A DNA stretch of 59,826 nucleotides, from the IMG/VR virus record IMGVR_UViG_3300042362_000235, positions 1 to 59,826 of that record. One strand, given 5' to 3'. This DNA is from a virus. A program made the position numbers and the translations under genes. Shown piece by piece: positions 1 through 32,700 of this stretch. Position 1 is the first letter of the stretch. Each line of letters starts with the position of its first letter. The notes under the pieces are model-generated. The model did not search any database. It was not told where the DNA came from and was given only the letters and a program-made list of their open reading frames with translations.

Positions 1-550
1 CAACCTGCTTCGCGAGGGCCTGGACCTGCCCGAGGTGAGCCTGGTGGCCATCCTGGACGCCGACAAGGAAGGCTTCCTGCGCGCCGAGCGCAGCCTGATC
101 CAGACCATCGGCCGTGCGGCGCGCAACCTCAACGGGCGCGCCATCCTCTACGCCGACCGCATCACCGACTCGATGCGCCGGGCGATCGACGAGACCGAGC
201 GCCGCCGCGCGCGCCAGATCGCCTGGAACGAGGCCCACGGCATCGTGCCGCGGGCCTTGAACAAGAAGGTGCGTGACCTGATCGACGGCGTCGTCTCCGA
301 CAAGGCGGCGCGCGAGGACCAGCGCGCTGCCGAGGCCGCGGCCGCCGTCGAGACGATGTCGGAGAAGGACCTGGGCAAGCGCATCAAGGCGCTGGAGAAG
401 CAGATGCTCGAGCACGCGCGCAACCTCGAGTTCGAGAAGGCGGCACGCATCCGCGACCAGCTCGCGCTGCTGCGCGAGCAGGCTTTCGGTGCCGATGGTC
501 ACGACACCAACGTGGTGCCGCTGGCGGCTGCCGGCGGCAAGGGGCGTTGA
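1..550 (+). CDS. uvrB: UvrB, excinuclease ABC subunit B (3' part only)
   Basis: This is the C-terminal part of the nucleotide-excision repair helicase subunit that loads UvrC onto damaged DNA. The frame is open from base 2 and starts in the helicase motif V/VI region ([25 protein letters not shown], then QTIGRAARN). The last 45 residues form the UVR domain that binds UvrC (from [13 protein letters not shown] to LLREQAF). The gene begins upstream of the window. It is a chromosomal host gene and ends 3 nt before the start of the truncated phosphatase gene. Confidence 0.96.
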
Positions 551-553
551 GCG

Positions 554-652
554 ATGGCGGCGCGCTTTCGCGTGCTGATGGTGTGCATGGGCAATATCTG
601 CTTTCCCTATGAGCGTGCGGTTCGCGTGCGGAATTCGTGCGGCATGCGCTGA
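554..652 (+). pseudogene. Stranded 5' end of the LMW protein tyrosine phosphatase gene
   Basis: The ATG at 554 lies 3 nt after uvrB. The frame reads [16 protein letters not shown], which is the start of a LMW phosphatase up to the P-loop cysteines. It then runs into unrelated phage sequence and stops at 650-652, giving a 32-residue peptide. The arginine that must follow in the CX5R loop is replaced by Phe. The rest of the enzyme is at 58162-58632, on the other side of the prophage. This is therefore the host half of the gene displaced by integration. Confidence 0.88.
584..601. other. attL: attL core (18-bp identity with attR)
   Basis: The sequence tgcatgggcaatatctgc is identical to 58189-58206. 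It encodes CMGNIC of the phosphatase catalytic loop. Host sequence lies to the left and prophage sequence to the right, and the integrase gene is the first phage gene inside. The true crossover lies somewhere within these 18 bp. Confidence 0.88.
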
Positions 653-688
653 GCTTTCCGGCCCTCCGGCGGCCTGATTCCGGGCATG

Positions 689-710
689 AAAAAGCCCGCC
701 GGAGCGGGCT
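689..710 (-). terminator. Rho-independent terminator after the integrase gene
   Basis: Read on the minus strand, this is a 7-bp GC stem (agcccgc/gcgggct) with a 4-nt loop, followed directly by a T run (689-693 read in reverse). It lies 23 nt beyond the integrase stop codon and fits an intrinsic terminator for the leftward operon. Confidence 0.8.
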
Positions 711-732
711 GTGACGAGGTCGCGCTGGGCCG

Positions 733-1794
733 TCATCCGACCTTGACCCGGATGGGCTCGACGCCCCGCGGGTTGGCGTACAGGTCGCTCATCCGCTCGG
801 TCTTGTGGCCGAGCAGCGCCTTGGTGTCGACGCCGCCCTGCTCGCGGTACAGGCGCTTGGCCAGGCTGCGGAGTTCGTGGAAGGTCGGCGCTGCTTCGTC
901 CGGGATGCCGGCCATCTCGCGCGCCCGCGTGAACGCCTTGCTCACCGTGTCAGCGAACACCGGCGAGCCGGCAGGCGCGTTGCCGTAGGGCGTGACGTGG
1001 TGAATCAGCCAGGGCGACACGACGCCAGTGCGCTGGGCCAGCACCTCGGCCAGCGACATGCCGACGACCTCCAGGCGGATCGAGGTCGGGATGGCCACGC
1101 GCGCGCCAGTCTTCGGCCTGGTGATGGTCAGCCAGCCATCGGCCACGTCGGCGCGCCGCAGGCCCACCAGCGTCGAGCGGTCGGCGCCGGTCAGCAGGCC
1201 GAGCAGCATCGCCCGGGGCAGCCAGCCCGCGGCCTTCGTGGCGTGCTCGAGGATCGCGCGGAATTGCTCCAGGGTCAGCCGGCCGCGCTTCACGGCGACC
1301 TTCGGCCGGTCGGTGATCTCGGCCGGGTTCGACTCCATCCATCCCAGCGCCTGGCCCTTGCGGCACACAGCCAGCAGGCGTGATCGCAGCGCCTCGGCGG
1401 TGCGTGCCTTGCCGGCCTCCTTGACCTCCTCGAGCAGCTCGGCAACGTCCCGCACGCGCAGCGCAGCGCAGTGGATGTCGCCGAGCTTCGCGCGGATCTT
1501 GGAGTCGAGGGTCTTGGTGCTCTTGCGGGTGTTGCGGTTCGCCGGCTCCGGCATCTTGTCGAGCAGGTCGGCCACGGTCTGCGATGCGCCGGCCAAGCGG
1601 TCGACCAGCGTCGTGCGGTGCTCGGCGATGTACAGGTTGGCCGCAGTCGCTTCTGACTTGGCCACCGCCAGCGGCACGCGACCGATCGGCAGGATGCGGC
1701 CGTCCGGGTGCTCCCAGGCGAAGTAGCCCGGGCGGGGCTCGCGCAGGCCGCGAGGCCAGTCGCGGCGCTTGATCGAGCGGCGTGCAGCGTTCAT
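733..1794 (-). CDS. int: Tyrosine-recombinase prophage integrase
   Basis: A 353-residue site-specific recombinase that inserts and excises the phage at the att core. The C-terminal catalytic half shows LLTGADRST (first Arg region), [16 protein letters not shown] (HxxR), [18 protein letters not shown] (H and the nucleophile Tyr). The N-terminal part carries a DNA-binding arm region. I start it at the ATG at 1794, which overlaps the xis stop in an ATGA junction, rather than at the longer upstream frame, because the extension would be a shadow of xis. It is adjacent to attL, as expected for an integrase. Confidence 0.95.
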
Positions 1795-1991
1795 GCGGCC
1801 CTCAGTCGGTCGACGAGCGACTCGGGCGCACCGGTGATGCGGCGGGCGTCCTCGCGCACGTAGTAGGTGCGCCCGACCTTCTCGGGCAGCGGGTGGATCT
1901 CGCCATCGCGCGCCCAGCGGCGCAGCACCCACAGCGACGGCGGCGGGTCATAGTGCCGTGCGGCCCAATTTTCTAGGGGCACTTTCTTCAT
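1791..1991 (-). CDS. xis: Lambda-Xis-like excisionase
   Basis: A 66-residue winged-helix protein of the lambda excisionase type. The segment VPLENWAARHYDPPPS, followed by LRRWARDGEIHPLPEKVGR and YYVREDARRI, matches the order of the lambda Xis helix-turn-helix, basic wing and C-terminal arm. Such proteins bend att-arm DNA and direct integrase toward excision. It overlaps int by 4 nt (ATGA), so the two are probably translationally coupled. Confidence 0.85.
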   Translation of the reverse strand: MKKVPLENWAARHYDPPPSLWVLRRWARDGEIHPLPEKVGRTYYVREDARRITGAPESLVDRLRAA

Positions 1992-2052
1992 TGCTTCCGC
2001 TCCAACGGGAGCGCCATCAGGATCATGGCGGATGCCCCCAGTTTCGACTCTC

Positions 2053-2151
2053 TCATCGCTTGTCGGTCGTCAACCAGTCGACCAGCGAGGCAATGAGGCC
2101 GATCACGGCCAGCACTGCCACGCAGACGCCAAGCAGTGCCAGCAGATTCAC
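2053..2151 (-). CDS. Very small membrane protein
   Basis: A 32-residue ORF beginning at a GTG that overlaps the stop of the preceding gene (GTGA at 2148-2151). It is almost entirely one hydrophobic helix (LLALLGVCVAVLAVIGLIASLV) followed by a short polar tail WLTTDKR. The tight overlap and the uniform operon pattern support it as real. No function can be assigned. A longer frame extends upstream but only in the shadow of the neighbouring gene. Confidence 0.55.
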   Translation of the reverse strand: MNLLALLGVCVAVLAVIGLIASLVDWLTTDKR

Positions 2152-2471
2152 GACGCAGCCCCGCGCTGTCCGCGAGCCTCGGCGATGGCTGCCTCGGTGT
2201 CTGCGTCGACTGCCCGCATCAAGGCCTCGGCATCGCCGGGATCGACGCCGCAGACCTTCAGGGTCCGCACCAGCGTCGCTTCGAGCACCTGCGCCATCAG
2301 GCACAGGGTCTCTTTGCTGGCGTCCTGGTGCAGCGCCGAGTGAAGCAGGGCGGCTTGGCGCGCCGAGCTGACCAAGGCCGCGGCGGTGCGCGCCCGCTCG
2401 TCGCCGATGCGCGCCGCCATCGCCGCGAAGACCTCGCCGACGCGCTCGCCCTTGGCGACGTGGACGTTCAC
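2148..2471 (-). CDS. Hypothetical early phage protein
   Basis: A 107-residue, mostly helical protein starting at a GTG that overlaps the stop of the upstream gene (GTGA). It begins VNVHVAKGERVGEVFAAMAARIGDERAR and ends in an Ala/Glu-rich tail. I do not recognise a domain. Its place in the recT/exonuclease operon suggests a role early after infection or in recombination, but that is context only. Confidence 0.7.
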   Translation of the reverse strand: MNVHVAKGERVGEVFAAMAARIGDERARTAAALVSSARQAALLHSALHQDASKETLCLMAQVLEATLVRTLKVCGVDPGDAEALMRAVDADTEAAIAEARGQRGAAS

Positions 2472-2713
2472 GGCGCCTCGCCGGCCGTTGCTGGGCCTTG
2501 GGGGTCGTCCTCGCGCGCGCCTGTGGCGTCCTCGATCTCCACGCGGTTGTCGCCGGTCAGCAGCGCGACCAGCTGGTCCTGGCTGGCGACCTCGGCCGTG
2601 TAGGACGTGCGCACGATGTGCGCCAGGGCGCGCGGCGCGTTGGTGGCGCGCACCAGACGCTCCTCGGCGGTGTCGATGTTGCGGACGAGGTAGATGCGGG
2701 TAGGGGTGCTCAC
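2468..2713 (-). CDS. Hypothetical small early protein
   Basis: An 81-residue protein that starts at a GTG overlapping the recT stop codon (GTGA at 2710-2713). It contains RIYLVRNIDTAEERLVRATNAPRALAHI and TSYTAEVASQDQLVALLT. This resembles short phage accessory proteins of alpha/beta pattern found beside recT, but I do not recognise a named family. Translation is probably coupled to recT. Confidence 0.72.
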   Translation of the reverse strand: MSTPTRIYLVRNIDTAEERLVRATNAPRALAHIVRTSYTAEVASQDQLVALLTGDNRVEIEDATGAREDDPQGPATAGEAP

Positions 2714-3585
2714 TTGCCACCCCCGGCGCGCTCGGTAGCTTCCATGTCGGCCACGAAGTCGTCCTGCGACGGATCGGGCGGTGGCGGTGCGCCGCCGGTG
2801 ATCTCGCCGGTGTCGGCGTCCACGGTGACCGGCTGCAGGGGGTTGTCCTGCGGCATGTCCAGATCGACGCGCTCGTCCTGCTCGACGGCGCTGGCCAGTT
2901 CGATGCTCACCGGCAGGTACTTGAACAGCCGGCGGATGACCGTCTTCTTGGCCATCTCCTCGTAGTGATCGACCCACGGCCCCGACTGGCCCGCCTTGCT
3001 CTTGGCGCGCACGCGCTCGATCTCGGCGCGGCTCATGACCTCGAACTGGGTGCCGCCGTCCTTGAGCTTGGCCACGGCGTAGACGAACCGCAGCGGGCCG
3101 CGGTCATCTGCCTCCCAGTCGGGCTCGTGCGTCAAGTCGGGGTTGAGGCCGAGGGCGACGTGGAAGCGATCGGCCGCGTAGACGGCGCGGGCCTCCAGCG
3201 ACAGGATCTGGCCGGAGCGCCGGGCGAGGTCGATCATGCCGCGGTAGCCGACGATGAACTGCACTTCGGTGATGCCCTTCTTGCGGTTCTCGAAGGGCAG
3301 CAGGTAGGCGTGGCCCAGTGCGCCGCCGGGCTCAAGCCCCAGCTGCGCGCACTGCATGATCGCGCCGAGGAAGCTGGCCTGGTCGCAACGACCCAGCGCC
3401 GGCACCTTGCGGACCTCGGTGAGGGCGATGCGGGCCAAGCGGTCGGCCGTCATGTGCTTGGGCAGGGCCAGCGCAAGCTGGGCCTTGATCTTGGGGTCGG
3501 TCAGCAGGCCGGCGATGGTCGTCGGCTGCTGCTGGGCGTTGGCCACCTTGCCGGTGACGTGCGCCTTGAGGGCGGTCGTACTCAT
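2710..3585 (-). CDS. recT: RecT-family single-strand annealing protein
   Basis: A 291-residue phage recombinase that anneals complementary single strands exposed by the partner exonuclease. The family core is clear: LGLEPGGALGHAYLLPF, then QFIVGYRGMIDLARRSGQILSLEARAVY, GPLRFVYAVAKLKDGGTQFEVMSRAEIE, and KKTVIRRLFKYLPVS. The acidic, proline-rich C-terminal tail (about residues 245-291) resembles tails thought to contact SSB. It sits directly after the YqaJ exonuclease, the usual RecT partner. Confidence 0.96.
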   Translation of the reverse strand: MSTTALKAHVTGKVANAQQQPTTIAGLLTDPKIKAQLALALPKHMTADRLARIALTEVRKVPALGRCDQASFLGAIMQCAQLGLEPGGALGHAYLLPFENRKKGITEVQFIVGYRGMIDLARRSGQILSLEARAVYAADRFHVALGLNPDLTHEPDWEADDRGPLRFVYAVAKLKDGGTQFEVMSRAEIERVRAKSKAGQSGPWVDHYEEMAKKTVIRRLFKYLPVSIELASAVEQDERVDLDMPQDNPLQPVTVDADTGEITGGAPPPPDPSQDDFVADMEATERAGGGK

Positions 3586-3588
3586 GGA

Positions 3589-4563
3589 TCAGATGCCTTT
3601 CGTGTCGAAGGACTTGACGGTGAAGACCCGCTTCTCCCACTTCCGGGCGAACTCACGGGCCAGCTTGGGGTGCGCCTCTTTCAGCGCCGTCTCGTCGAGG
3701 TACGACCCGCTGCGCTGCTTCCACTCCACGGCCGTCTTTCCGTTGGGCATGACCAAGGTGGTGCAGTCGCGCATCGCGCGCTTCAACGAGACCTCGATCG
3801 CCTCGGCCTCGGCCTCGCGGGCCTTGACCTCGGCGTTGATCGCGCGCAGCTGCATGACCTGTTCGGTCAGCGCGTCGTCGGCCAGCAGCGGCGCGGCGTC
3901 GGGGTTGTCCTTGTCGAACAACTTCGACAGGTCTTCCAGGGTGGTCGGCTCGGGCGCCACGCCCGCCAGGACGTGATCGAGCCAGAACGCGCTGGCGCGC
4001 TCGCGCAGGGCCGCGATGGTTTCGCCGTCGGCCGGCACGGGGTAGACGCGCAACTCGTCAGCGCCGAACAGCGCGGCCAGCATGCCGTCGCGCCGGCGGG
4101 TGACGCCCAGGCCGTGCATCACCTGCGCGGTGTAGTGAACGGGCAGGCTGTCGCTGCCGCTCTCGCCCCACTCGCGCAGGCGGAACGGGTGAACCGTCTT
4201 CAACTCGCAGTTCGTGATCTCCTCGGCGCCGTCGAGGCGGATCTCGAAGTCGATCTCGGCAGCCAGGAACGGCAACTCCGGGTCGCGGTAGCGGCGGTTG
4301 CTGGCCACGATCTCGACCGTGTGGCCCTGCTCCTGCAGCCGCTCGACCAGCATTTCGGCCACGGCGCCCTCCCAGCGGATGCCGCGCTTGAGAACGGCGC
4401 GCGTCGGGCCGTCGCCGCGCGGCTGGGTCTTGTCGCGCCACAGATCCAGCGGCGTCTTCCAGGGACTGATGCCCAGTACGGCAGCGATGTCACTGCCGCC
4501 CAGGAGCTTGCTGCGGTCGTGCGCGTCGGGCGCGATGACCGCCAACTCGGCGGGGGCGTTCAT
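3589..4563 (-). CDS. YqaJ-type phage recombination exonuclease
   Basis: A 324-residue PD-(D/E)XK nuclease that resects double-strand ends for RecT. The N-terminal motif LGGSDIAAVLGISPWKTPLDLW is characteristic of YqaJ. The catalytic residues are likely the Asp and Glu-x-Lys in FLAAEIDFEI and NCELKTVHPF, and HYTAQVMHGLGV is the usual substrate-binding helix. I start it at the ATG at 4563 (MNAPAELAV), because the longer frame upstream is a shadow of the next gene. It forms the recombination pair with recT, 3 nt away. Confidence 0.92.
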   Translation of the reverse strand: MNAPAELAVIAPDAHDRSKLLGGSDIAAVLGISPWKTPLDLWRDKTQPRGDGPTRAVLKRGIRWEGAVAEMLVERLQEQGHTVEIVASNRRYRDPELPFLAAEIDFEIRLDGAEEITNCELKTVHPFRLREWGESGSDSLPVHYTAQVMHGLGVTRRRDGMLAALFGADELRVYPVPADGETIAALRERASAFWLDHVLAGVAPEPTTLEDLSKLFDKDNPDAAPLLADDALTEQVMQLRAINAEVKAREAEAEAIEVSLKRAMRDCTTLVMPNGKTAVEWKQRSGSYLDETALKEAHPKLAREFARKWEKRVFTVKSFDTKGI

Positions 4564-4586
4564 GTGGGGTTGAACTCCTCGTGGGG

Positions 4587-4817
4587 TCAGGGGTGAACGT
4601 CGCCCAGGTACTGGGCGATCTCGCGGACTTCGCTGGCCACGTCGTCGCGGCTCTTGCGGCCGACGAACATCAGGTGGCGCAGGCTCTGCAACTCGTCGAT
4701 GGCCGCGTCCATCGCTTCGAGCAAATCGTCTTCGCCGTCGGGCGGCTCGGCGTTGTCCCAGGCCGCTTGGCCCGCAGCCATCGCGCGGCGCGCGGCGTGG
4801 AATCTGGTGTCGCTCAC
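4587..4817 (-). CDS. Hypothetical early protein
   Basis: A 76-residue helical protein starting at a GTG that overlaps the upstream stop (GTGA at 4814-4817). It reads VSDTRFHAARRAMAAGQAAW, then an acidic stretch EPPDGEDDLLEAMDAAIDEL, and ends EVREIAQYLGDVHP. No domain is recognised. Its position upstream of the exonuclease suggests an accessory early function. Confidence 0.72.
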   Translation of the reverse strand: MSDTRFHAARRAMAAGQAAWDNAEPPDGEDDLLEAMDAAIDELQSLRHLMFVGRKSRDDVASEVREIAQYLGDVHP

Positions 4818-5131
4818 GGCTGCCCCCCGGTCGCCTTGGCGACGGCGGCACGGGCCACCTTGTGCAAAGGGGACGCGACCCCATCGCCGTGCGCGCTGGC
4901 GTGGTGGTCCCACAAAGCCACGATGCGGCGCAGGGCGTCCAGCAGCTCGGGGGCGCTGGCGATCAGGCGCGCGTTGGCCTCCACCTCAAGCGACCCCATG
5001 CAGCCCGTCGCGTTGGACAGGTGATGCACGGAGGCGCCGGCCGAGCAGTAGCCCGGCATGAAGATGTTGAAGGCCGAGCGGTCCTCGATCTTGTCGGCGA
5101 ACCACGGGCCGGGGGTGTGCGACTTGCTCAC
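4814..5131 (-). CDS. HTPGPW-motif phage protein
   Basis: A 105-residue protein starting at a GTG within a GTGA overlap. It carries SHTPGPWFADK near the N terminus and EANARLIASAPELLDALRRIV in the middle. This pair of motifs recurs in many small phage proteins of unknown function. A longer frame runs in-phase upstream to 5332, but the overlap pattern suggests that this extension belongs to a separate, frameshifted gene. Confidence 0.78.
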   Translation of the reverse strand: MSKSHTPGPWFADKIEDRSAFNIFMPGYCSAGASVHHLSNATGCMGSLEVEANARLIASAPELLDALRRIVALWDHHASAHGDGVASPLHKVARAAVAKATGGQP

Positions 5132-5332
5132 AGCGGCCACACCACGGCAGCGATGGCGCCGAGCAGCGCCAAGAGCATCACCACGCACCAGCAGCGCCTC
5201 GATCCACTGCGCGGGGAAGTCCGGCTCAGGCTCCTCCTGGGGAACCTGGCAGGCTGCTGGAGAAGGGCAGGGACGACGCCCCTGCTCGCAGGCGTCGGCC
5301 TGACAGCGCATCGGGATGACGCGGCCGGTCAC
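5128..5332 (-). pseudogene. Frameshifted small Cys-rich membrane protein (probable)
   Basis: The ATG at 5332 overlaps the previous stop (ATGA). The frame reads MTGRVIPMRCQADACEQGRRPCPSPAAC, a cysteine-rich head, then EEPEPDFP. From there the same frame runs on into the HTPGPW gene. The neighbouring frame instead encodes a hydrophobic helix, WWCVVMLLALLGAIAAVVWPL, and stops at 5128-5130 inside a GTGA overlap with the next gene. The simplest reading is a one-base indel around 5190-5225 that separated the head from its membrane anchor. A sequencing error would look the same. Confidence 0.5.
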
Positions 5333-5532
5333 AGCAGCGCCCCCATCTCGTTGAGGGCCAGCGCCACCAGCGCCAGGGCGATCGCGACGGCCAGCGCGTC
5401 GCCAGCCAAGCGCTCACGGCGCGAGACGCGCCGGGCAAAACCTTCCAGCGCGCAGGCGTCGCGCACCGGGTCGGTGCTGCGCCGCTGTGCGCGGGTCCAT
5501 GCCTCGGGCGTGTCGAGGAACTGAGGCCGCAT
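5329..5532 (-). CDS. Hypothetical membrane-anchored early protein, first gene of the leftward operon
   Basis: A 67-residue protein. I choose the ATG at 5532 (MRPQFLDTPEAW) because a GGAG lies 8 nt upstream; the ATG at 5553 has no such site. The body is polar, RAQRRSTDPVRDACALEGFARRVSRRERL, followed by a C-terminal transmembrane helix (ALAVAIALALVALALNEM). It follows the PL-like promoter by about 45 nt. Confidence 0.68.
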   Translation of the reverse strand: MRPQFLDTPEAWTRAQRRSTDPVRDACALEGFARRVSRRERLAGDALAVAIALALVALALNEMGALL

Positions 5533-5577
5533 CAGCCGCTCCGCCCCCGGCATCAGCCGTTGTCTTGGGGTGCGACT

Positions 5578-5606
5578 ATGTTAGGTGCGCCTTAGTATCT
5601 AGTCAA
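5578..5606 (-). promoter_or_regulatory. PL-like promoter of the leftward early operon
   Basis: On the minus strand, TTGACT (5601-5606) is separated by 17 nt from TAACAT (5578-5583), a good sigma-70 pair. The operator at 5581-5594 occupies the end of the spacer and the start of the -10 box. A second operator begins at the -35 box. Repressor binding here would block leftward transcription. Confidence 0.72.
5581..5594. promoter_or_regulatory. Operator OL1-like site
   Basis: TTAGGTGCGCCTTA is an imperfect inverted repeat of the form TTAGG-N4-CCTWA. It is identical to the site at 7538-7551 and lies over the -10 side of the PL-like promoter. It is probably bound by the CI-type repressor and/or Cro. 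Confidence 0.7.
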
Positions 5607-5619
5607 TAGGGGCACCTAA
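5606..5619. promoter_or_regulatory. Operator OL2-like site
   Basis: ATAGGGGCACCTAA fits the same N4-spaced inverted repeat. It starts at the first base of the -35 box of the PL-like promoter, 25 bp centre-to-centre from the neighbouring operator. Confidence 0.62.
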
Positions 5620-5737
5620 GCACCTGGGTTTGAGTGCGTGCCACGCACCGCCGCGCTTCTTCCGCAACCCCCTTATGAGGCGGGCGCCTGGAACAGGGCT
5701 TTGCTACAACATGAGGCCGAGTGCTGCGGGAGAACGC

Positions 5738-6034
5738 ATGAACGCGCTGTATGTCGAGCTGGAAGAGGGGGGGTCTGGCGATGCAAACGGGCTGGTTGGC
5801 ATCGTGCTCTGGCTTGCGGTCTTCTCGGGCCTGCTGTGGGTTTCCGAAAAGCTGAGTCTGAGCGTTCGCGTCACCAGGGCGTTATGGGGCGCGTGCAACT
5901 TCGGCCCGCTTGCTGCATGGCTTGTGGCGGTGCCGACACTCGAAGTCCTGCCCGTGATCGGCGTTGGCGCGGTCGTGGCGTTCAGCTACTGGATGGGAGC
6001 CGAGGCCATCAATGACAAGGACCGAGAGCTGTGA
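5738..6034 (+). CDS. Small inner-membrane protein, lysogenic-conversion candidate
   Basis: A 98-residue protein with start ATG 5738, preceded by GGGAG at a 5-nt spacing. After a polar acidic head (ALYVELEEGGSGDAN) there are about three hydrophobic segments: LVGIVLWLAVFSGLLWV, FGPLAAWLVAVPTLEVLPVI and GVGAVVAFSYWMGAEAI. It is encoded opposite to the early operon, between PL and the repressor, where lambdoid phages carry rex or superinfection-exclusion genes. No family is recognised and the function is unknown. Confidence 0.72.
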   Translation: MNALYVELEEGGSGDANGLVGIVLWLAVFSGLLWVSEKLSLSVRVTRALWGACNFGPLAAWLVAVPTLEVLPVIGVGAVVAFSYWMGAEAINDKDREL

Positions 6035-6055
6035 GCGCGACAAGTCGCGTCGCGA

Positions 6056-6670
6056 CTAGAGTCGCAGCAGCAAATCGCTGTGCTCAAGCATGGTAGGGCG
6101 TACATGCTGGCCGAGCGGGCAGAGGAAGACCTGCGCTCCTTCTCGCCTGGCGAACTTCATCGCGGGAACGAAGTCGCTGTCGCCGGACACGAGCACGATG
6201 ACCTGCACTTGGCGCTTGAGCGTCAATGCGGCGATGTCCATGCCGATGCGCATGTCCACGCCCTTCTGGGTGATCTCGGGGCGCAAGTCGTCGGCGCCGA
6301 TGGTGATGGTAGGCCCGGTGGCCTTCGCCAGTTTGCGCGCCGACACCGTCCAGCCGTCGAACGCAAGTTCGCCAAGGCGAAGCGCAAGGAAAGGCTCCTG
6401 GCGGAGTTCTTCGAACAGCTTGAGCACGCGGGCAGCGGTCGGTTGGCGCCCAAAGTCCACACGCTCACCGCTCAGAGGCTTTTGCTCCGCACCCTCGAGC
6501 GGCGCCGAGTCGTAGTAGTAGGCACGATGCAAGCGCATGCCTGCTAGCGCGCCGTGCTGCGTGATGCTGGCCACAAGGGCGCGCACATCAGTGCTGGTCG
6601 CCGGGCGGCTGCTGGATCCAAGCTTGCGGCGGATGAAACCACCGTCTAGCAGCAACGCGAAATGCAGCAT
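6056..6670 (-). CDS. NYN/PIN-like nuclease domain protein
   Basis: A 204-residue protein of the NYN (LabA/DUF88) class of PIN-like metal-dependent ribonucleases. Conserved acidic positions are visible in FALLLDGGFIRRKLG, in QKGVDMRIGMDIAAL and in VIVLVSGDSDFVPAMKFARREG; together these make the usual Asp cluster. It lies next to and on the same strand as the repressor gene and may be expressed from the prophage. RNA cleavage as host protection or superinfection exclusion is a reasonable guess, not shown by the sequence. Confidence 0.88.
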   Translation of the reverse strand: MLHFALLLDGGFIRRKLGSSSRPATSTDVRALVASITQHGALAGMRLHRAYYYDSAPLEGAEQKPLSGERVDFGRQPTAARVLKLFEELRQEPFLALRLGELAFDGWTVSARKLAKATGPTITIGADDLRPEITQKGVDMRIGMDIAALTLKRQVQVIVLVSGDSDFVPAMKFARREGAQVFLCPLGQHVRPTMLEHSDLLLRL

Positions 6671-6974
6671 ACGTGAGTGGCGACCAAGGGGGTCGGGAGT
6701 CGAAGCCCCCTGTTATATGTCACCCCCGAGGCGGCCGGGTCTGCTATCGGCAGGGCCGAAGTGTGCCACATTGCTGCACCGCAGCGTGGCCAGGGTAAAC
6801 ACCGCTGTCGATCCCCCTCGTTCCCTCTCACGCTGCGTTCGGCTCACCGCCGCAGAGCCACGAAACGCACCACGACGCCACCCCCTTTCGAGTGAACTCC
6901 GTTAGAGGGGTCTTCACGGGTATTGCTGGGTCGCCGAGTGACGGGCTGTGCAAAGCTGTAAATGCGCGCCGAAG
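6671..6974. other. Intergenic region between the NYN gene and the repressor gene
   Basis: About 300 bp with no convincing ORF. It must hold the 5' signals of the NYN gene and the 3' end of the repressor transcript. A hairpin-like agggggtc...ccccct lies near 6687-6712, but it has no T run, so I do not call it a terminator. Confidence 0.4.
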
Positions 6975-7490
6975 TCAAGCCGCAAACCGACCCGGCGTTT
7001 CCTGAACCGGCGGCGGAGCGTCGTCCTGGCGCCGCTCGGCGCCGTGGCGCCGGTTGACGCCGTTCCACGGCTGCTCGCCGAGCGCCTGACCCAACCAGCG
7101 CGCCAGCTCGGCGCTGTCGGGGGCCAGCAACAGCGCAGCCCACTTCGCCGTCATGGCCGTGCGTTGCGCCTCGGGCAGTGCGCGCAGGGCGCTGAGCACG
7201 ACGGGCAGGGCTTGCTCGAGGGTAGGCGGGGTCGCCTGTAGCGCCGAGGCGGTTGGCGTCGCCGAGTCGAGCCAGTTCGGAGCCCCGATTCCCTCTCCAA
7301 GCCAAATCGGGTCGCACCTCCACAGCCGGGCGGCGCCCGTCGCGGTTTTCAGCTTGAGCCGCAGGGTCTTGCCGTTGAACCAATCCGTTACCGATGGTGC
7401 CTTGACCCCGGCTGCGCGAGCAATGTCCGCCCTGGAAACGGCTGGATGGCGGCGCTCGCATTCAGTGACTCGATCGCGCAGCGTACTCAT
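6975..7490 (-). CDS. CI-type prophage repressor (short form)
   Basis: A 171-residue protein with an N-terminal XRE helix-turn-helix: VSRADIARAAGVKAPSVTDWFNGKTLRL. It continues AARLWRCDPIWLGEGIGAP, typical of phage repressors. The C-terminal half is a helical segment (QALPVVLSALRALPEAQRTAM) rather than the S24/LexA-like autoprotease domain. Induction by RecA-stimulated self-cleavage is therefore unlikely. It faces away from cro, as in lambda. Its ATG has no clear ribosome-binding site and lies within an operator, suggesting autoregulation and possibly a leaderless transcript. Confidence 0.86.
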   Translation of the reverse strand: MSTLRDRVTECERRHPAVSRADIARAAGVKAPSVTDWFNGKTLRLKLKTATGAARLWRCDPIWLGEGIGAPNWLDSATPTASALQATPPTLEQALPVVLSALRALPEAQRTAMTAKWAALLLAPDSAELARWLGQALGEQPWNGVNRRHGAERRQDDAPPPVQETPGRFAA

Positions 7491-13055: not shown

Positions 13056-13420
13056 CGCTGCGCCTGGACACGTTCAAGCGGGCGCCGAAGTACGGCAACC
13101 GCCGGGTGCCGGCCAGCGACGGCGGCAAGCCCTTCGACAGCCAGGCCGAGGCCCGCCGCTACGCGGAACTGCTGCTGCTGCAGCGCGCCGGCGAGATCAG
13201 CGGCCTGCAGCGCCAGGTGCCCTACGAGCTGGTGCCTGCGCAGCGCGACAGCGCCGGCAAGGCCGTGCGTGCGGTCACCTACGTGGCCGACTTCCACTAC
13301 CGCACCAAGGACGGCACCGCCGTCGTCGAGGACGTGAAGGGCGTGCTGACGCCCGACTACCGCATCAAGGCGAAGCTGATGCTGTGGCGCCACGGCATCG
13401 AGGTCAGGGAGGTGCGCTGA
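13052..13420 (+). CDS. DUF1064 PD-(D/E)XK-type endonuclease
   Basis: A 122-residue protein starting at GTG in a GTGA overlap. KYGNRRV...FDSQAEARRYAELLLLQRAGEISGLQRQVPYEL is the DUF1064 signature. Catalytic residues are likely the Asp in YVADFHYRT and Glu-x-x-Lys in VVEDVKGVLT, followed by YRIKAKLMLWRHGIEV. Proteins of this group are taken to be phage Holliday-junction or VSR-like nucleases and may resolve branched DNA before packaging. Confidence 0.88.
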   Translation: MTLRLDTFKRAPKYGNRRVPASDGGKPFDSQAEARRYAELLLLQRAGEISGLQRQVPYELVPAQRDSAGKAVRAVTYVADFHYRTKDGTAVVEDVKGVLTPDYRIKAKLMLWRHGIEVREVR

Positions 13421-13989
13421 TGGGGCGCCCGAGCAAGCTGGCGCCGCACCAGTGGGCCGAGGTCGAGCGCAGGCTGCTGGCCGGGGAGGGAGCGAGCGCG
13501 CTGGGACGCGAGTTCGGCGTGAGCGAGGCCGCGATCCGAAAGCGGTTCGGAGAAACGCGGAAGTACGAAAGTGCGAACGTCCAAAAGACGGCCCGGCTGG
13601 TGGCCGACGCCAACGACGCGCTCGAAGCCCTGCCGCCTGCGCAGCGCCAGGTGGCCGTCGCCCTGGCCGACGAACTGCGCGCGATCAGCCGCAACCTCGC
13701 CGCCGCGGCCCGGCTGGGCAGCGCCACGGCACAGATCCTGGCCCAGCAAGCGCACCAGCAGGCGCAGGACGTGAGCGACGAGGCCGGGCTGCGCGCGGTG
13801 GCCATGCTGACCCGCACCGCCAACGAGGCCGCGGCCACGGGCCTGCAGCTGCTGCGCAGCAACGAGAACGTGGTGGCCGACGAGGAGGCCGAGCGCGGGC
13901 GCCAGGCGCGCCGTGTGACGCGGATCGAGATCGTGCCGATGGAGCCCGAGAATGATCGGGTGATGGATGCACCTCGAGGCGAGCGATGA
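13420..13989 (+). CDS. Putative terminase small subunit (HTH protein)
   Basis: A 189-residue protein starting in a TGATG junction. The N-terminus GRPSKLAPHQWAEVERRLLAGEGASALGREFGVSEAAIRKRF is a helix-turn-helix suited to recognising packaging-site DNA. The rest is helical and suited to oligomerisation. Its place before HNH nuclease and TerL is that of TerS. It could instead be a regulator, so the name rests mainly on context. Confidence 0.65.
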   Translation: MGRPSKLAPHQWAEVERRLLAGEGASALGREFGVSEAAIRKRFGETRKYESANVQKTARLVADANDALEALPPAQRQVAVALADELRAISRNLAAAARLGSATAQILAQQAHQQAQDVSDEAGLRAVAMLTRTANEAAATGLQLLRSNENVVADEEAERGRQARRVTRIEIVPMEPENDRVMDAPRGER

Positions 13990-14542: not shown

Positions 14543-15424
14543 ATGACTGGCATGCGTCTTGGAGACATGATGGAGCACCTGAATTACTGCCGCCAACTGA
14601 TGAAGCATTGCAAATCAATGCTGGAGGCGCCCAGCCTTGATCCCGTGGCACGCGCCCTACTCAGCCGCGTGGTGGACTTGCACGGCGCTTCAACCAAGTT
14701 TCATCTTCCCGTTGGCGGGAGGTTGTTCGATGATCCGCAGTACCGCGCGCTGGACGAGTCGCAGCCGCTGCACCTGCCCTACCCATGCATTGCGCTGGAA
14801 TACCAGAGCGGCGGCCGAGAGCGCAGACCAGATGAGCCGATGTGGGGGCGCAACGGACCGACATACGAAGACGATTCCTTCGTCATCGCACCCAAGCGGG
14901 TTGTATTTGCTAGAGAACAAGGCGACTGGATCGTCATCAACGTCGCATTCTGGACGACTGACGACGCGGTTTGGCGCGTGCTCCCAGAGTGCGCGATACC
15001 CAGGACGGGCTATCTTGACCGCGCGAAAGAAGATCGCGGCCGGGTACCGATCAGGTTTGGGCTGGCAGACGAGCGCGTGCCGCTGTCGGACTACATGGAT
15101 GAACTGGGCGCGCTGCTTTGTTTCCTGAACGCGCTGCAGTGTTCAAACGTCCATGTCGAGCGCAGCGAGCCCAAGAAGGCCGGCAAGAAGATTAAGGCCG
15201 CGCTGCCTTTCGACACATACCACTTCCTGACGATTGAGGCACCTGGCAAGGCTGGGTGCGGCACACCGACTGGCGGACACCGTTCGCCCCGCGAGCACCT
15301 GCGACGCGGGCACATCCGTCGCCTGGCAGACGGACGGCGCAGTTGGGTGAACGCCACAGTGGTCGCGGCAGGGCGTGGCGCTGGCGTGGTGACAAAGGAC
15401 TATGCGGTGCGGTGCGCTGCATAA
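14543..15424 (+). CDS. Conserved phage protein, last gene before the attC cluster
   Basis: A 293-residue protein. MRLGDMMEHLNYCRQLMKH opens the conserved part; an ATG at 14567 behind GGAG is another possible start. It contains LPYPCIALEYQ, YMDELGALLCFLNALQCSNVHVE and a strongly conserved-looking C-terminus REHLRRGHIRRLADGRRSWVNATVV. The C-terminal region is familiar from many tailed-phage proteins of unknown function. Its TAA stop lies inside the R'' box of the first attC site, the way integron cassette genes often end. Confidence 0.8.
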   Translation: MTGMRLGDMMEHLNYCRQLMKHCKSMLEAPSLDPVARALLSRVVDLHGASTKFHLPVGGRLFDDPQYRALDESQPLHLPYPCIALEYQSGGRERRPDEPMWGRNGPTYEDDSFVIAPKRVVFAREQGDWIVINVAFWTTDDAVWRVLPECAIPRTGYLDRAKEDRGRVPIRFGLADERVPLSDYMDELGALLCFLNALQCSNVHVERSEPKKAGKKIKAALPFDTYHFLTIEAPGKAGCGTPTGGHRSPREHLRRGHIRRLADGRRSWVNATVVAAGRGAGVVTKDYAVRCAA

Positions 15425-15470
15425 CGCCCGAGTTCAGCCGCCGTAGGTCGGCTGGAACGAAGTGTTAGGC
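15419..15470 (+). other. attC: attC-like site 1 (integron cassette recombination site)
   Basis: A 52-bp site with R'' GCATAAC and R' GTTAGGC at its ends. Inner arms are GTTCAGCCG and CGGCTGGAAC, which pair with one unpaired base, the usual extrahelical base of attC. An 8-nt loop separates them. R'' differs from the complement of R' at one position. The gene before it ends inside R''. Confidence 0.82.
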
Positions 15471-15487
15471 AGCATGTTGGAGAAACG

Positions 15488-15805
15488 ATGAGACAGACGC
15501 ACGAATGGCCCGGCCACTGGACGCGAGTAGCGCCCAGCGTGGAAGACCACCCGCAGGGCGGCGAACTGGCCTGGATGGCGCGTGGCTACCCGTTCACCCG
15601 CCCGGTGCTGGCGCGCTCGAATGTGGGCGTGAAGCGTGCGCCGACGTGGGCAGCAATGGAGCCGGTGTACCAACAGTTTGTGCGCGTCGAGTTGATGGCC
15701 GACAACTTCCACGGCCAGGACGCCAGCAACTTCGGCTGGTTCCGCGACTTGGAGTGGCTGGGGCCGCTGGTGCTGCCTAACGCCCGAGGTAAGCCGCGCC
15801 GCTAG
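15488..15805 (+). CDS. Cassette ORF 1, unknown function
   Basis: A 105-residue soluble protein. The ATG at 15488 follows GGAG by 5 nt, just after attC site 1. It is rich in Trp and aromatic residues: HEWPGHWTRVAPS, WMARGYPFTRPVL, DNFHGQDASNFGWFRDLEWLGPLV. The C-terminus LPNARGKPRR is encoded inside the next attC site, a usual feature of cassette genes. No family is recognised. Confidence 0.7.
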   Translation: MRQTHEWPGHWTRVAPSVEDHPQGGELAWMARGYPFTRPVLARSNVGVKRAPTWAAMEPVYQQFVRVELMADNFHGQDASNFGWFRDLEWLGPLVLPNARGKPRR

Positions 15806-15831
15806 GCGTCGGCTTGAGCGAAGTGTTAGGC
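15775..15831 (+). other. attC: attC-like site 2
   Basis: A 57-bp site with R'' GCCTAAC and R' GTTAGGC perfectly complementary. Inner arms are GGTAAGCCG and CGGCTTGAGC with an extrahelical base, and a small hairpin loop CGCC-GCTA-GGCG lies between. It shares GCCCGAG after R'' and CGAAGTGTTAGGC at the 3' end with site 1, so the two are closely related. Confidence 0.88.
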
Positions 15832-15855
15832 GTCTTGGTGAGCGGAGAGGAAACG

Positions 15856-16158
15856 ATGGAATACACAGCGACTTTGCCGACCGAGGTTGGCGCCTACCGG
15901 CACCGCTGGTCCGATGCGCGCGGCACACTGCGAGAGCAAGTGCTGTTCGTTGGCTACACCAACGCCAGCGCGCCTCGCTTGCAGGGCGACAGGCCAAACG
16001 CCTACATGCCGCGCAAGCTGAAGTGCTGCCGGCCTGACGAGCACCTACACGCCGACAGACTGACGCCGGCCGAGTGGGGCGGGTGGTGGGCGCGCATTGA
16101 GACGCCTAACGCAGAAGTAACCGGCCTTGGCCGCAACAGGAGCAACGATGAACGATGA
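15856..16158 (+). CDS. Cassette ORF 2, unknown function
   Basis: A 100-residue protein with ATG 15856 behind GGAGAGG at a 5-nt spacing. It reads YTATLPTEVGAYRHRWSDARG, then VLFVGYTNASAPRLQGDRPNAYMPRK and ADRLTPAEWGGWWARIETPNAEVTG. The last residues are encoded inside attC site 3. The start AAACGATG resembles the leader of ORF 1. It overlaps ORF 3 by 11 nt. No family is recognised. Confidence 0.7.
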   Translation: MEYTATLPTEVGAYRHRWSDARGTLREQVLFVGYTNASAPRLQGDRPNAYMPRKLKCCRPDEHLHADRLTPAEWGGWWARIETPNAEVTGLGRNRSNDER

Positions 16159-16198
16159 ACTTTCGCCGGCCAAGGTCCGGTTGACTGACGGGTTAGGC
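16104..16198 (+). other. attC: attC-like site 3 (long form)
   Basis: A 95-bp site with complementary R'' GCCTAAC and R' GTTAGGC. Inner arms GTAACCGGCCTTGGCCG and CGGCCAAGGTCCGGTTGAC form a long stem with two unpaired bases on one side. The loop contains a ribosome-binding site and the ATG of ORF 3. The size and layout fit a longer attC of the usual 57-141 bp range. Confidence 0.85.
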
Positions 16199-16456
16199 CC
16201 GCTGGTGGATGCCGAGATGGCGGCTTACTACGAGGGTGAATATGGTGACCACAGCACGGCCCGCGCCCGACTGCTGGACTTTGCGCGGGCGGTGATCGCA
16301 TCCGAGTGCGTGGATCTGAGACAGGCCGCCGAGTACGCGGCGCACAAACTTGAAGGGGCGCGCATCTGGAACGGGCAAGAGTGGCACTACAACCCGCTGC
16401 ACCCGCTGCACTACCGGAGCGCGCTGGAGCGCCTGCGCGATGCGCTGCGGGCCTAA
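16148..16456 (+). CDS. Cassette ORF 3, unknown function
   Basis: A 102-residue protein whose best start, ATG 16148 after GGAG, lies in the loop of attC site 3. An in-frame ATG at 16217 (MAAYYEGEYGDHS) would lie fully inside the third cassette. It reads ARLLDFARAVIASECVDLRQAAEYAAHKLEGARIWNG, then HPLHYRSALERLRDALRA. It stops inside the terminal GCCTAAC half-site. No family is recognised. Confidence 0.65.
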   Translation: MNDELSPAKVRLTDGLGPLVDAEMAAYYEGEYGDHSTARARLLDFARAVIASECVDLRQAAEYAAHKLEGARIWNGQEWHYNPLHPLHYRSALERLRDALRA

Positions 16457-16457
16457 C
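16451..16457 (+). other. Terminal attC half-site
   Basis: GCCTAAC matches an attC R'' box and overlaps the stop of ORF 3, but no GTTRRRY partner or inner arms follow before the TerL start. This looks like the broken right end of the cassette run. Confidence 0.55.
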
Positions 16458-16474
16458 GCGAAATAGACAAACCC

Positions 16475-17809
16475 GTGGCCGAAACCCGCCGCATCGAGAT
16501 CCCACCCAAGCTCATCCCGGTCTTCTCCGGCGCCGCCGACGTGCGCGGCGCCTGGGGCGGACGCGGCTCCGGCAAGACGCGCAGCTTCGCCAAGATGACC
16601 GCGGTGCGCGCCTATGCGTTCGCCCAGGCCGGCATCAGCGGGCAGATCCTGTGCGGCCGGCAGTTTCAGAACAGCCTGGCCGACAGCTCGCTGGAGGAGA
16701 TCAAGCGGGCGATCGAGGACGAGCCCTGGCTGGCCGACGCCTTCGAGGTCGGGGAAACCTACGTGCGCACGCGCGACGGCCGGGTGAGCTACACCTTCGC
16801 GGGCCTTGAACGGAACATCGACAGCATCAAGTCCAAGGGCCGCATCCTGCTGTGCTGGGTGGACGAGGCCGAAGGCGTCAGCGACCACGCCTGGGACGTG
16901 CTGGCGCCGACGCTGCGGGAGGAGGGTGAGGGCTGGTCGGCCGAGCTATGGGTGACGTGGAACCCGAAGCGCCGCGGCTCGGCCACCGATCGCCGGTTCC
17001 GCCAGGCCAAGGATCCGCGCATCAAGGTCGTCGAGCTCAACTGGCGCGACAACCCGCGCTTCCCGGCGGTGCTGGAGCGCCAGCGCCAGCGCGACCTGGC
17101 CGAGCGGCCGGACACCTACGACTGGGTGTGGGAGGGCGCCTATGCCACGACGGTGGCCGGCGCCTACTACGCCAAGCACTTGACCGCGGCGCGCGCGGCT
17201 GGCCGCATCGGCCGGGTGGCGCCCGATCCGCTGATGACCCTGCGGGCGTTCACCGACATCGGCGGCACGGGCAAGCGCGCCGACTCCTTCGTCTGGTGGG
17301 TGGCCCAGTTCATCGGGCGCGAGGTCCGGGTGCTGGATCACTACGAGGCGGTGGGCCAGCCGCTGGAGGCCCACCTGACCTGGGCGCGCAACCGCGGCTA
17401 CACCCACGAGCGCATGCAGGTCTGGCTGCCGCACGACGGCGTGACCCACGATCGCATCTACGACGTGACCTACGAGTCGGCGCTGACGCGCGCGGGCTAC
17501 AACGTCACCATCGTGCCCAACCAGGGCGCCGGCGCGGCCATTGCCCGCATCGAGGCGCTGCGTCGGGTGTTCCCCTCGACGTGGTGGGACAGCGAGCGGT
17601 GCGCCGCCGGCCTCGAGGCGCTGGGTTGGTACCACGAGAAGCGCGACGAAGTGCGCGACGTGGGCCTGGGGCCGGAACACGACTGGTCGAGCCACAGCGC
17701 GGACGCGGCCGGGATGATGGCCATCGTCGCCGAGGATCACATGCGCAGCGGCACCCAGTCGGCCGCGGCGCAACTGTTCAAGCGGCGCCGCAGCGGCATG
17801 GCCGTCTGA
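16475..17809 (+). CDS. terL: Terminase large subunit
   Basis: A 444-residue packaging motor. The ATPase has GAWGGRGSGKTRSFAKM (Walker A) and ILLCWVDEAEGV (Walker B), followed by LWVTWNPKR (motif III-like). The RNase H-like nuclease shows RAFTDIGGTGKRADSFVWW and a final HDWSSHSADAAGMM acidic site. It is the PBSX/Terminase_3 type. The only in-frame start is GTG 16475, since a stop lies at 16454, and no ribosome-binding site is visible. The upstream leader ends in the broken attC, so the original leader may have been replaced. Confidence 0.96.
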   Translation: MAETRRIEIPPKLIPVFSGAADVRGAWGGRGSGKTRSFAKMTAVRAYAFAQAGISGQILCGRQFQNSLADSSLEEIKRAIEDEPWLADAFEVGETYVRTRDGRVSYTFAGLERNIDSIKSKGRILLCWVDEAEGVSDHAWDVLAPTLREEGEGWSAELWVTWNPKRRGSATDRRFRQAKDPRIKVVELNWRDNPRFPAVLERQRQRDLAERPDTYDWVWEGAYATTVAGAYYAKHLTAARAAGRIGRVAPDPLMTLRAFTDIGGTGKRADSFVWWVAQFIGREVRVLDHYEAVGQPLEAHLTWARNRGYTHERMQVWLPHDGVTHDRIYDVTYESALTRAGYNVTIVPNQGAGAAIARIEALRRVFPSTWWDSERCAAGLEALGWYHEKRDEVRDVGLGPEHDWSSHSADAAGMMAIVAEDHMRSGTQSAAAQLFKRRRSGMAV

Positions 17810-29748: not shown

Positions 29749-32700
29749 GTGACCCAGCGAAACGATCTACCCCCAGCAACGTCCGTCAACTTCGAGCAGC
29801 GCGTTCGCGAAACGCTGATGACGTACCTGGGGCGTCAAGGCGATCCACTGGACCGCGGCGTCACGCTGCGCGATCTCGTCGATGCCGGCATCGCCAAGGT
29901 GTCGGACCGATACCTGTCGCGGCGCGGCGGGCCGCAAGGCGGCGGGCCTGTGCTCATCCCGGGAAGCGCAGAGTCTGCGGAACGGGACTTGACCCCGCCG
30001 CCAACGCCCACCGGGTTCAAGGTGACGGCCGGCATCTCTCACGTCTTCATCGAGCACGATGTGCCGCGCTATACGCAGGGCCGCGGGCACTTGAGGACGC
30101 ACGTCTACGCTGCAGCCGTCAACGAAGGCCAGGGGCTCCCCACGTTCGATGCGGCAGCCCCGGTGGGCCAGTTCGAGGGGACGTTCTACGCGCTGCCGAC
30201 AAACCCTTCGACGACGCTGTGCCTGTGGATCAAGTGGGAAACGCGCGATCAGGTCTTGAGTGTCGGCCCTGCCGGGGGCATCAACGGCCTGCAAGTCACT
30301 ACCGGCCAGGACGTATCTCTGCTGCTGGACGCACTCACGGGGGCGATCACCGAAGGCCAGCTCTACCAGACGCTGCGTGACCGCATCGACCTCATCGACG
30401 GCGTGCAGCCGGGGTCGGTCAACGACCGCATCCAGACTGAAGTCGGCAACCGTGCCGCCGCGCTCCTGGCGGAGGCTGACGCCCGGGCTGCAGCCGACGC
30501 AATCCTGTCGGCGGTCCAAGGAGCTTTTGGGGGAAGCGCCGGGCAGCTTGCGGCAGCAGTCCAGATCGAACAGCAGACGAGAATTGACCAAGACGCCGCA
30601 CTAGCTTCCCGGTCTGAGTTCGTGGCCGCGCAGTCGGCCAGCTCTGCCGCGGCCGTCGTTGTCGAGCAGCAAGCCCGATCCGACGCCGACTCAGCCATGG
30701 CGTCGCAGACCACCGCCCTGGCGGCGCGCCTGGGCGACAACGCCGCCGCGCTCCAGCTTGAGCAGCAGGCCAGGGCGGATGCCGATTCATCGCTGTCCTC
30801 GCAGGTGCTCACGCTGTCGTCTGCCGTCGGCGATGCCGACGCCGCCATCGAGGTCGAGCAGCAGGTCCGCGCCAGCGCGGATTCCGCCGTCGCCTCGCAG
30901 GCCACCACGCTGGCCACGGCGCTGGGCGCCAACTCTGCCGGCCTGTTCGAGGAAGCCCAGGCCCGCACCACGGCCGACGCGGCGGCCTCCAGCGTCGTCG
31001 CAGGGCTCAACGCCGCAGCCGGCGCCAACTCGGCCGGGCTGCTGACCGAGCAGCAAGCGCGGGCGGATGCCGACAGCGCCGCCGCGTCGAGCGTGGCGTC
31101 GCTGTCCGCGGCCGCCGGCAGCAACGCCGCGGCCATCGTGGCCGAGCAGACGACCCGGGCCAACGAAGACTCGACGCTGTCCAGCCAGATCACGACGCTG
31201 TCGAGCGACTACAGCACCAACAAGGCGCTGGTGCAGTCGCAGATCACGACGCTGACCAATGCCGACAGCGCCTTCGCCCAGCAGATCAACACCGTCCAGG
31301 CCGTGGCCAATGGGGTTGCGTTCGAGCCCGCAATCTCTTGGAACTTCGATGCCACCGTCGAGGGGTGGAACGTCGGCGGCGCGACGGGCTCCATCGTCAG
31401 GGGCGCGCTGCGGGTTGTCTCGACCGGCACCGACCCGATCATCAGCTCGCCGACGGCCTTAAGCGTCAACGGCGCCGTCAACACGCTGATCCGGGCTCGC
31501 GTGCGCCGGCTCGCCGGCACCGGCTGGCAGGGGCAGGTCTACTACTCCACCGCCGGCCACGGCTGGACGGAGGGGTTCCGCAAGATCATCCCGGACACCA
31601 CCGTCCTCAACGAGTGGCGCGTGCTCGAGTGGGACATGGCGGCGCTGACGACCGGCGGCAACGACTGGATCACCAGCACCATCGACACCATTCGCATCGA
31701 CCTGGGGACGACCGCGTCCGACCAGTTCGATGTCGACTGGATCGCCATCGGCCGCACGGGACAGGTCGCCTACACCGCGGCCATCCAGCAGGAATCGAGC
31801 GCCCGAGCCACCGCGGTTGGCACCATCGAGTCCAGGTTCACCGTCAAGGTGAACGCGGCGAACCACGTTGCCGGCTTCGGCCTCATCGCCACGGCCAACA
31901 ACGGCACGACGGTCAGCGACTTTGGCGTTGCCGCAGACCGCTTCTTCATCGCCCCGGCCGCCGTGGCCCAGGCCACCGCGCCCAGCGCAAACCTGTACAG
32001 CGGCTTCGTGTGGCTCGACACCAGCGTGACGCCCAACGTCACCCGGTACTGGAACGGCTCGACCTGGACGACGACCCCGCCCCGGCTGCCGTTCATCGTG
32101 CAGGCCACGCCGACCACGATCAACGGCGTGAGCGTGCCGGCCGGCGTCTACATCGACACGGCCTTCATCCGCGACGGCACGATCACCAGCGCGAAGATCG
32201 GCAACGCGACCATCGACAACGCCAAGATCGCAGACGTATCGGCCGGCAAGATCACTGGCGGCGCGATGCAGGTGGGCTCGTTCATCCAGTCGACGAACTA
32301 CACCAGCGGGACCAGCGGAGCCGGGTGGCGCATCAACGCTGACGGCACCGCAGAGCTTCAGGCCGCCTACATCCGGGGCAACATCTCCGCAGCGAACATT
32401 GGCGCCAACACGATCACGGCCGACAAGATCGACACCCGCGGCCTCGACATCAAGGATGCCAGTGGCAACGTCATCTTCTCGTCCGGGGTCAACCTTGCTT
32501 CCAGCCGCGTCAACCCGGCCGCCGGCTGGCTGAACTCCAACATCACGGTCAGCGCAGGCCAGCTCGCCGGCATCGGCACGCCGGGCGTCGTGGTGGACAA
32601 CTCGTACCAGACCATCGGCCAGAACCTGCTTCCGGCCTCGGACCAGACGCAGGGCTCAACGTGGATGCGGGCCTACAGCCCCAACGGGGCGACGTTCAAC

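Follow-up and report, generated by a model that had tools for sequence, protein, structure and literature searches.

The locus: an attC array in a prophage

The window, that is, the whole stretch of 59,826 nucleotides analysed here, is an integrated temperate phage. Its prophage hallmarks are an integrase, RecT and RecE-like genes, a P22-like portal, a capsid gene, an endolysin, an 18-bp repeat, and host genes for a low-molecular-weight phosphotyrosine phosphatase and an Rrf2-type regulator. The main features are given below in window coordinates, with covariance model (CM) scores for the attC sites.

584–601: left copy of the 18-bp repeat TGCATGGGCAATATCTGC, putative prophage attachment core
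733–1788, minus strand: prophage tyrosine integrase, not an integron integrase
13384–13989, plus strand: terS-like gene, with a counterpart directly before terL in the relative L001
13986–14507, plus strand: HNH endonuclease (phrog_144, E=7e-9)
14546–15424, plus strand: ORF0, upstream of the array; its stop is the TAA of the attC1 left box; no significant family
15419–15470, plus strand: attC1, 52 nt (45.7 bits, E=6.7e-10)
15488–15805, plus strand: cassette gene B, with its own Shine-Dalgarno sequence; ends inside attC2; no family
15775–15831, plus strand: attC2, 57 nt (58.6 bits, E=2e-13)
15856–16158, plus strand: cassette gene C; its last codons lie in the attC3 loop and overlap the gene D start
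16104–16198, plus strand: attC3, 95 nt, long loop with Shine-Dalgarno and ATG (33.4 bits, E=1.5e-6)
16138–16142, plus strand: AGGAG, Shine-Dalgarno-like, in the attC3 loop, 5 nt before the ATG at 16148
16148–16456, plus strand: cassette gene D; begins within the attC3 loop, passes across the right box and has the half-site TAA as its stop
16451–16457, plus strand: terminal half-site GCCTAAC at the right array junction (inferred insertion junction); its TAA is the gene D stop
16475–17809, plus strand: terminase large subunit gene, terL (phrog_3717, E=1e-59)
58189–58206: right copy of the 18-bp repeat, inside the low-molecular-weight phosphotyrosine phosphatase gene, which is followed by the Rrf2-type regulator

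At the right end of the prophage, positions 46135–57378 hold an open reading frame of 3,747 codons, in which an NPPFG motif could be read that is typical of DNA methyltransferase-helicases, for example those of the DarB type.

Integrons are the gene-capture platforms of bacteria, in which attC-type sites are used to shuffle antibiotic-resistance genes. An earlier note on this DNA had placed three attC sites in the window, and their positions proved exact. Sites were called here with a home-made scanner and with a CM trained on classical-polarity attCs only (twelve attCs from two records of that polarity, Lysobacter L168 and the IMG/VR record L092), which identified all three as attCs of the same polarity. 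Each match is significant, and nothing comparable was found elsewhere in the 60 kb: the model matched the window only once more, on the minus strand of attC2 (E=0.012), with 19.0 bits against 58.6 bits for the plus strand. The classical-type control, L092/L097, comes from an isolate genome and has a full, strong intI and classical-polarity attCs; its integron may be a piece of chromosome that was taken into a viral call. An Rfam scan of the window gave no match.

All three sites display the R''/L''–L'/R' inverted repeats with RYYYAAC and GTTRRRY core boxes, the left box of attC1 carrying one mismatch (GCATAAC, with GTTAGGC on the right), and the extrahelical base that defines strand polarity lies on the same side in each. 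A fourth box, GCCTAACG, lies at 16451; the broken half-site reported there is indeed the terminal half-site of the array. The motif GCMTAACG occurs four times in the window, always on the plus strand and inside the cluster. The fold of attC3 has a z-score of -5.4. Folding of the bottom strand, also proposed earlier, was carried out, and it is the gene-sense plus strand that folds slightly better (-11.7, -18.6 and -25.7 kcal/mol for the three sites, against -8.8, -16.7 and -23.9 for the bottom strand).

The three sites differ in their distribution. The attC2 segment (15770–15836) is matched by plasmid integron attCs in 4,375 records, at about 80–90% identity (best about 86–90%), and attC2 looks like the attCs of resistance cassettes. 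The core of attC1 is found identical in L081, L083, L087, L088, L093 and L096, with a left box that reads GCATAAC in the window, GCCTAAC in L081, L083, L087 and L096, and GGCTAAC in L088 and L093; the attC3 core also recurs in L081. One strict scan of bacterial genomes for the attC1/attC2 type returned nothing, and DNA searches of 72,556 plasmids and 50,697 isolated phages gave no match to the long, attC3-type sites.

As the note had described, genes B and C finish inside the following attC; ORF0 and gene D stop at the TAA of a box. The overlap of the gene C stop with the gene D start in the attC3 loop (16148–16158) suggests translational coupling through the hairpin. Family searches gave no assignment for genes B, C and D; a homologue of gene B, 75% identical, stands behind the same attC1 in L087. 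No integron integrase was found in the window record with TIGR02249, in line with the note, and the locus is not a complete integron, since intI is absent. With three attCs within 0.8 kb and no intI nearby, the locus falls within the definition of a CALIN (at least two attCs within 4 kb, without intI nearby), and the description of a CALIN-like cluster inside a phage packaging region was right. In L001, whose TerL is 86% identical, the terS-like gene is directly followed by terL, without the HNH gene, ORF0 or the cassettes, which identifies the HNH–ORF0–cassette block as extra. In the comparison of related phages suggested in the note, this close relative lacks the whole block, and array content differs between phages.

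Gene orientation relative to attC polarity

In the window, it is the gene-sense strand that matches the attC model, so that the genes run opposite to classical cassettes. The reference orientation comes from the annotated class 1 integrons of pF3 and pKAM645_7. Turning their attCs to the orientation of the window puts the cassette genes aadB, aac(6')-Ib and catB8 on the other, minus strand, and intI1 of pF3 comes to lie to the right. Coding strands between neighbouring attCs were called by codon bias. Across 46 viral loci, 114 calls had the phage sense, none the opposite one and 14 were undecided, whereas bacterial-type loci gave 2 calls of phage sense versus 32 opposite. Calls from the longest reading frame (76/21/34) were noisy in this GC-rich DNA and were replaced by the codon-bias calls. 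A reading of the phage orientation as the classical one was overturned by the annotated plasmid integrons, and with it the simple idea that an attC donates a start to the next cassette.

A classical cassette has its attC at the 3' end of the gene, with polarity along the gene, and this arrangement is not the one seen in phage arrays. The cassette reading of the earlier note therefore stands for the attCs and for the CALIN; it does not hold for the genes as ordinary cassettes from a bacterial integron, because they are inverted relative to attC polarity.

Related phage arrays and their cargo

The integrase-less cluster of the window is not isolated, dozens of IMG/VR phage contigs carrying similar arrays. 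The attC1/attC2-type pattern was found in 16 viral stretches, most with several attCs, and the long-type pattern with AGGAG in the loop in 71 viral and 17 bacterial stretches; after filtering, the viral set comprised 80 loci and 245 sites. Most of these contigs are metagenomic fragments. A single TerL family was matched in 23 of 50 of these records, the terminase of G048 belonging to a different family. The view that arrays lie mainly upstream of terL was dropped, since the L093 array is far from terL and those of L249 and L250 precede a phage integrase.

Most of the 61 array proteins have no family; some belong to phage families of unknown function, to DNA methyltransferases or to DUF551. This cargo looks like phage accessory genes, and their shuffling, for instance of methyltransferases and DUF551 proteins, may benefit the phages. 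In the G048 array (L247), two genes, at 32149–32865 and about 34361–35056, read as DNA methyltransferase-like, in agreement with the methyltransferase cassettes of published phage CALINs. Recurring attC subtypes (e.g., GTTGCAAATAAGCTGCCGCC...) were noticed in different phage contigs (L087 710–767, L090 11369–11426, L249 8840–8898) and hint at a common cassette pool. A possible link to a named host is offered by L171/L286 (positions 1–7300), the end of a Rubrivivax MAG contig, where a phage-type inverted attC array lies near the purA-hisZ-hflCK-hfq chromosome genes. It adjoins an excisionase-like HTH gene and a protein which, on reading, resembles Cas7 of type IV CRISPR; the contig is broken.

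The mobile unit and its junctions

Near-identical segments common to several phages often run from the left box of one attC to about 7 nt into the next, and they leave differing downstream attCs, as in L088/L136, or in L102 and L113 versus L164 and L118. Likewise, attC1 and gene B are common to the window and L087 from the left box on. Where identical attC cores stand in different contexts, the outer letters vary for the left box in eight groups and for the right box in three. The shared segments show a mobile unit that consists mostly of an attC and the gene behind it and runs as far as the next R box. The simplest reading would place the junction in the left box, at the position that corresponds to G↓TTRRRY in the complementary strand (the arrow marking the junction), and a left-box junction implies a unit made of the attC and the gene behind it.

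The junctions are not all of one kind, as L149 and L164 differ by one gene and its downstream attC, a clean gain or loss with its junction at the right box. Another exception is the pair L093/L163, which has a gene body alone in common, the attCs on either side of it being different. The number of independent exchange events mapped is below ten. The suggestion in the note that phage could be moving cassettes was right, as movement between phages.

attC sites as predicted start and stop signals

The Shine-Dalgarno/ATG arrangement of attC3 was found in 68 distinct long phage attCs. The frame it sets is open for at least 150 nt past the right box in 65 of the 68, versus 29 of 136 other frames. 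Start phases are distributed 34:33:1, the phase that would meet the TAG of GTTAGGC being avoided 67:1. At loci that had not been picked by the AGGAG pattern, the start frame is open in 23 of 30 cases, against 2 of 30 on the other strand and 2 of 27 in bacterial long attCs. Only 6 of 64 genes behind such long attCs have a start signal of their own after the box, versus 41 of 90 behind short attCs. In predicted RNA pairing, the Shine-Dalgarno sequence and start are more open than the site average in 60 of 65 cases, and 41 of 63 loop-started frames stop exactly at the TAA of an R box. In L093/L163, one gene body stands in the same frame behind two different attCs. Gene D is the example of this loop-start build in the window.

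Because the loop holds the Shine-Dalgarno sequence and ATG and the gene reads through the L'–R' half, such an attC would be at once a recombination site and a translation start, with translation predicted to begin in the loop.

Integron integrases and attI-like blocks in relatives

Apart from the record of L092, G048 was the only attC-bearing viral record above the cut-off in a TIGR02249 search (268.8 bits for a curated cut-off of 265, though its intI is truncated). A search with the G048 protein led to six viral contigs including G048 itself, the relatives being 72–96% identical to it. L249, L250, G048 and L251 carry the intI of a complete integron, relatives being placed through their identity to G048. 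The catalytic residues R, K, H, R, H and Y are kept in the four full-length enzymes. Five of the six group in one supported clade that is separate from IntI1 and from the chromosomal IntIs. The nearest bacterial IntI is 55–56% identical, among 300 genomes from Burkholderiales, the order of a Rubrivivax MAG.

Upstream sequence is available for five contigs; in all of them attCs lie ahead of intI and on its strand, so that they have their classical place on the 5' side of intI. In the five-member clade, intI is preceded by a block of the form GCCYAAC-TTSAATTC...GACACC...CTGTCCGCTAAC, with a looser box in L248, L249 and L251, and sequences diverge from the R box of this block on, as expected of attI. 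By its conservation, this block is a putative attI adjoining intI in five contigs. L249 continues with phage integrase, tail fibre and tape measure genes, and L250, L248, L252 and G048 carry lysis, tail, integrase or terminase genes. In L098 (record of L085, 18420–18620, minus strand), a contig with seven attCs, a 139-amino-acid frame matches only the N-terminal part of an integron integrase (E=2e-19), as if intI were decayed or split.

Proposed mechanism and alternative explanations

The window can be read with good confidence as an integrase-less, three-cassette array of a phage integron lineage that shuffles phage accessory genes, with inverted genes and a unit made of attC plus gene. It also seems probable, at a slightly lower level of confidence, that environmental phages, whose hosts are probably betaproteobacterial, evolved this integron lineage as their own. 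Cassettes would be inverted in it, each attC would serve as recombination site, start donor and, through the next box, stop, and accessory genes would be swapped as self-contained frames expressed from the phage operon.

In this scheme, attC polarity and the attI/intI geometry would be those of ordinary integrons, with each gene lying inverted 3' of its own attC and read in the direction of intI, as is the phage operon. Since the junction would lie in the left core box (GCYTAA↓C in the gene direction, G↓TTRRRY on the other strand), the TAA stop of a gene would fall at the junction. Behind short attCs a gene would keep its own ribosome-binding site, and in long attCs the loop would provide ribosome entry, the gene being read through the L'–R' half. 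The most likely course is that an integrase encoded by a phage recombines attCs folded from the gene-sense strand and brings attC plus gene into attI or other boxes. In the window, three units (about 15425–15780, 15781–16109 and 16110–16456) were probably inserted at GCATAAC, the ORF0 stop, ahead of terL, which would have left the half-site at 16451. As the window has no intI, activity there would depend on an integrase acting in trans; otherwise the array may be a frozen copy.

A different process could account for the spread of the attC cores, namely homologous recombination between phages in which the conserved attC ends provide short stretches of homology, the site-specific integron reaction having ceased to operate. 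The window does carry RecT and RecE-like genes, left-box and right-box junctions both occur, and most contigs lack a detectable integrase. However, the junctions fall at the core boxes and are not spread over the attC, integron integrases have been kept in six contigs, with an intact active site in the four full-length ones, and the putative attI is conserved up to the box. We regard this explanation as unlikely overall, though it deserves real weight. It is quite improbable that the loop start codons are coincidental and that the true starts lie further downstream in the gene body. GC-rich sequence does leave frames open by chance, as the 29 of 136 other frames illustrate, and some bodies have an internal Met (L137/L141); chance would yet have to explain open frames in 65 of 68 sites, the 67:1 avoidance of TAG, a separate Shine-Dalgarno sequence in only 6 of 64 genes and the absence of the arrangement from bacterial long attCs.

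The origin of the array could also be sought in bacteria. The window would then hold an ordinary CALIN of the kind published for other phages, taken up by a phage as a piece of a chromosomal integron of bacteria, and its sites do match bacterial attCs. The opposite gene orientation in bacterial integrons speaks against it, as do the lack of attC3-type matches in the 72,556 plasmids and 50,697 phages, and the separate clade of the phage integrases, whose identity to any found in the 300 genomes is about 56% at most; such a capture appears very doubtful. Finally, hairpins are common between phage genes, and the sites might represent a terminator hairpin or a fixed phage repeat that has nothing to do with integrons, but this idea is refuted by the CM E-values, and the bulge polarity, core boxes, varying content and empty relative also oppose it, which leaves it practically no credence. 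The earlier note's own counter-hypothesis of a fixed phage-specific repeat fails on the independent attC model match, the varying content and the empty relative L001.

Relation to known integrons

Simple phage CALINs are already known. Qi et al. 2023 (PMC9892861) described CALINs and complete integrons in phages, for example TJE1, P12002L, PH101, Shewanella M16-3 and Vibrio p16, and IntI1 recombined five of the six attCs tested from virulent phages. These phages resemble the present ones in having attC clusters in their genomes, some with intI; neither inverted arrays nor start-codon-bearing attCs are mentioned in the text consulted. The TJE1 CALIN appears classical, judging from visual reading and from a weak CM match (E=0.09), its only one, which does not fall on the strand of the genes but on the other. 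The IntIs of these published phages are 39–53% identical to that of L249. No earlier description of inverted arrays or of attC start codons was found in the open-licence literature, preprints excluded. Beyond the CALIN itself, the features that appear new from the sequences are the inverted genes, the unit of attC plus gene, the loop start codons and a phage intI clade with a conserved attI-like block.

If this is true, a phage lineage would possess an integrase, an attI and inverted cassettes ready for translation, as a gene-shuffling device owned by viruses. This would help to explain the fast turnover of small phage accessory genes, bear on the origin of cassettes and add a route for attC-linked genes between hosts. 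The role of attC as a translation start becomes a testable claim.

Another related system is the class 1 integron (IntI1, attI1, aadA-type attC). The phage IntI is about 53% identical to IntI1, the putative attI stands between the array and the 5' end of intI, and attC2 is about 80–86% identical to plasmid attCs; the differences are that the phage genes point the other way, that a gene starts in its own attC and that there is no Pc-driven outward array. A start signal within a recombination site has a precedent in ORF-11 of attI1 (PMC8876359), which aids translation of the neighbouring cassette; ORF-11 ends at the core-box TAG, with re-initiation, whereas TAG is avoided by the phage attC frames, which continue into the gene. 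In Treponema integrons (PMC3607928), a reversed intI is transcribed toward attI, intI and the cassette genes running in the same direction. The phage arrays share this common direction, but reach it in another way: their putative attI is at the usual intI 5' end, the inversion affecting the cassette genes instead.
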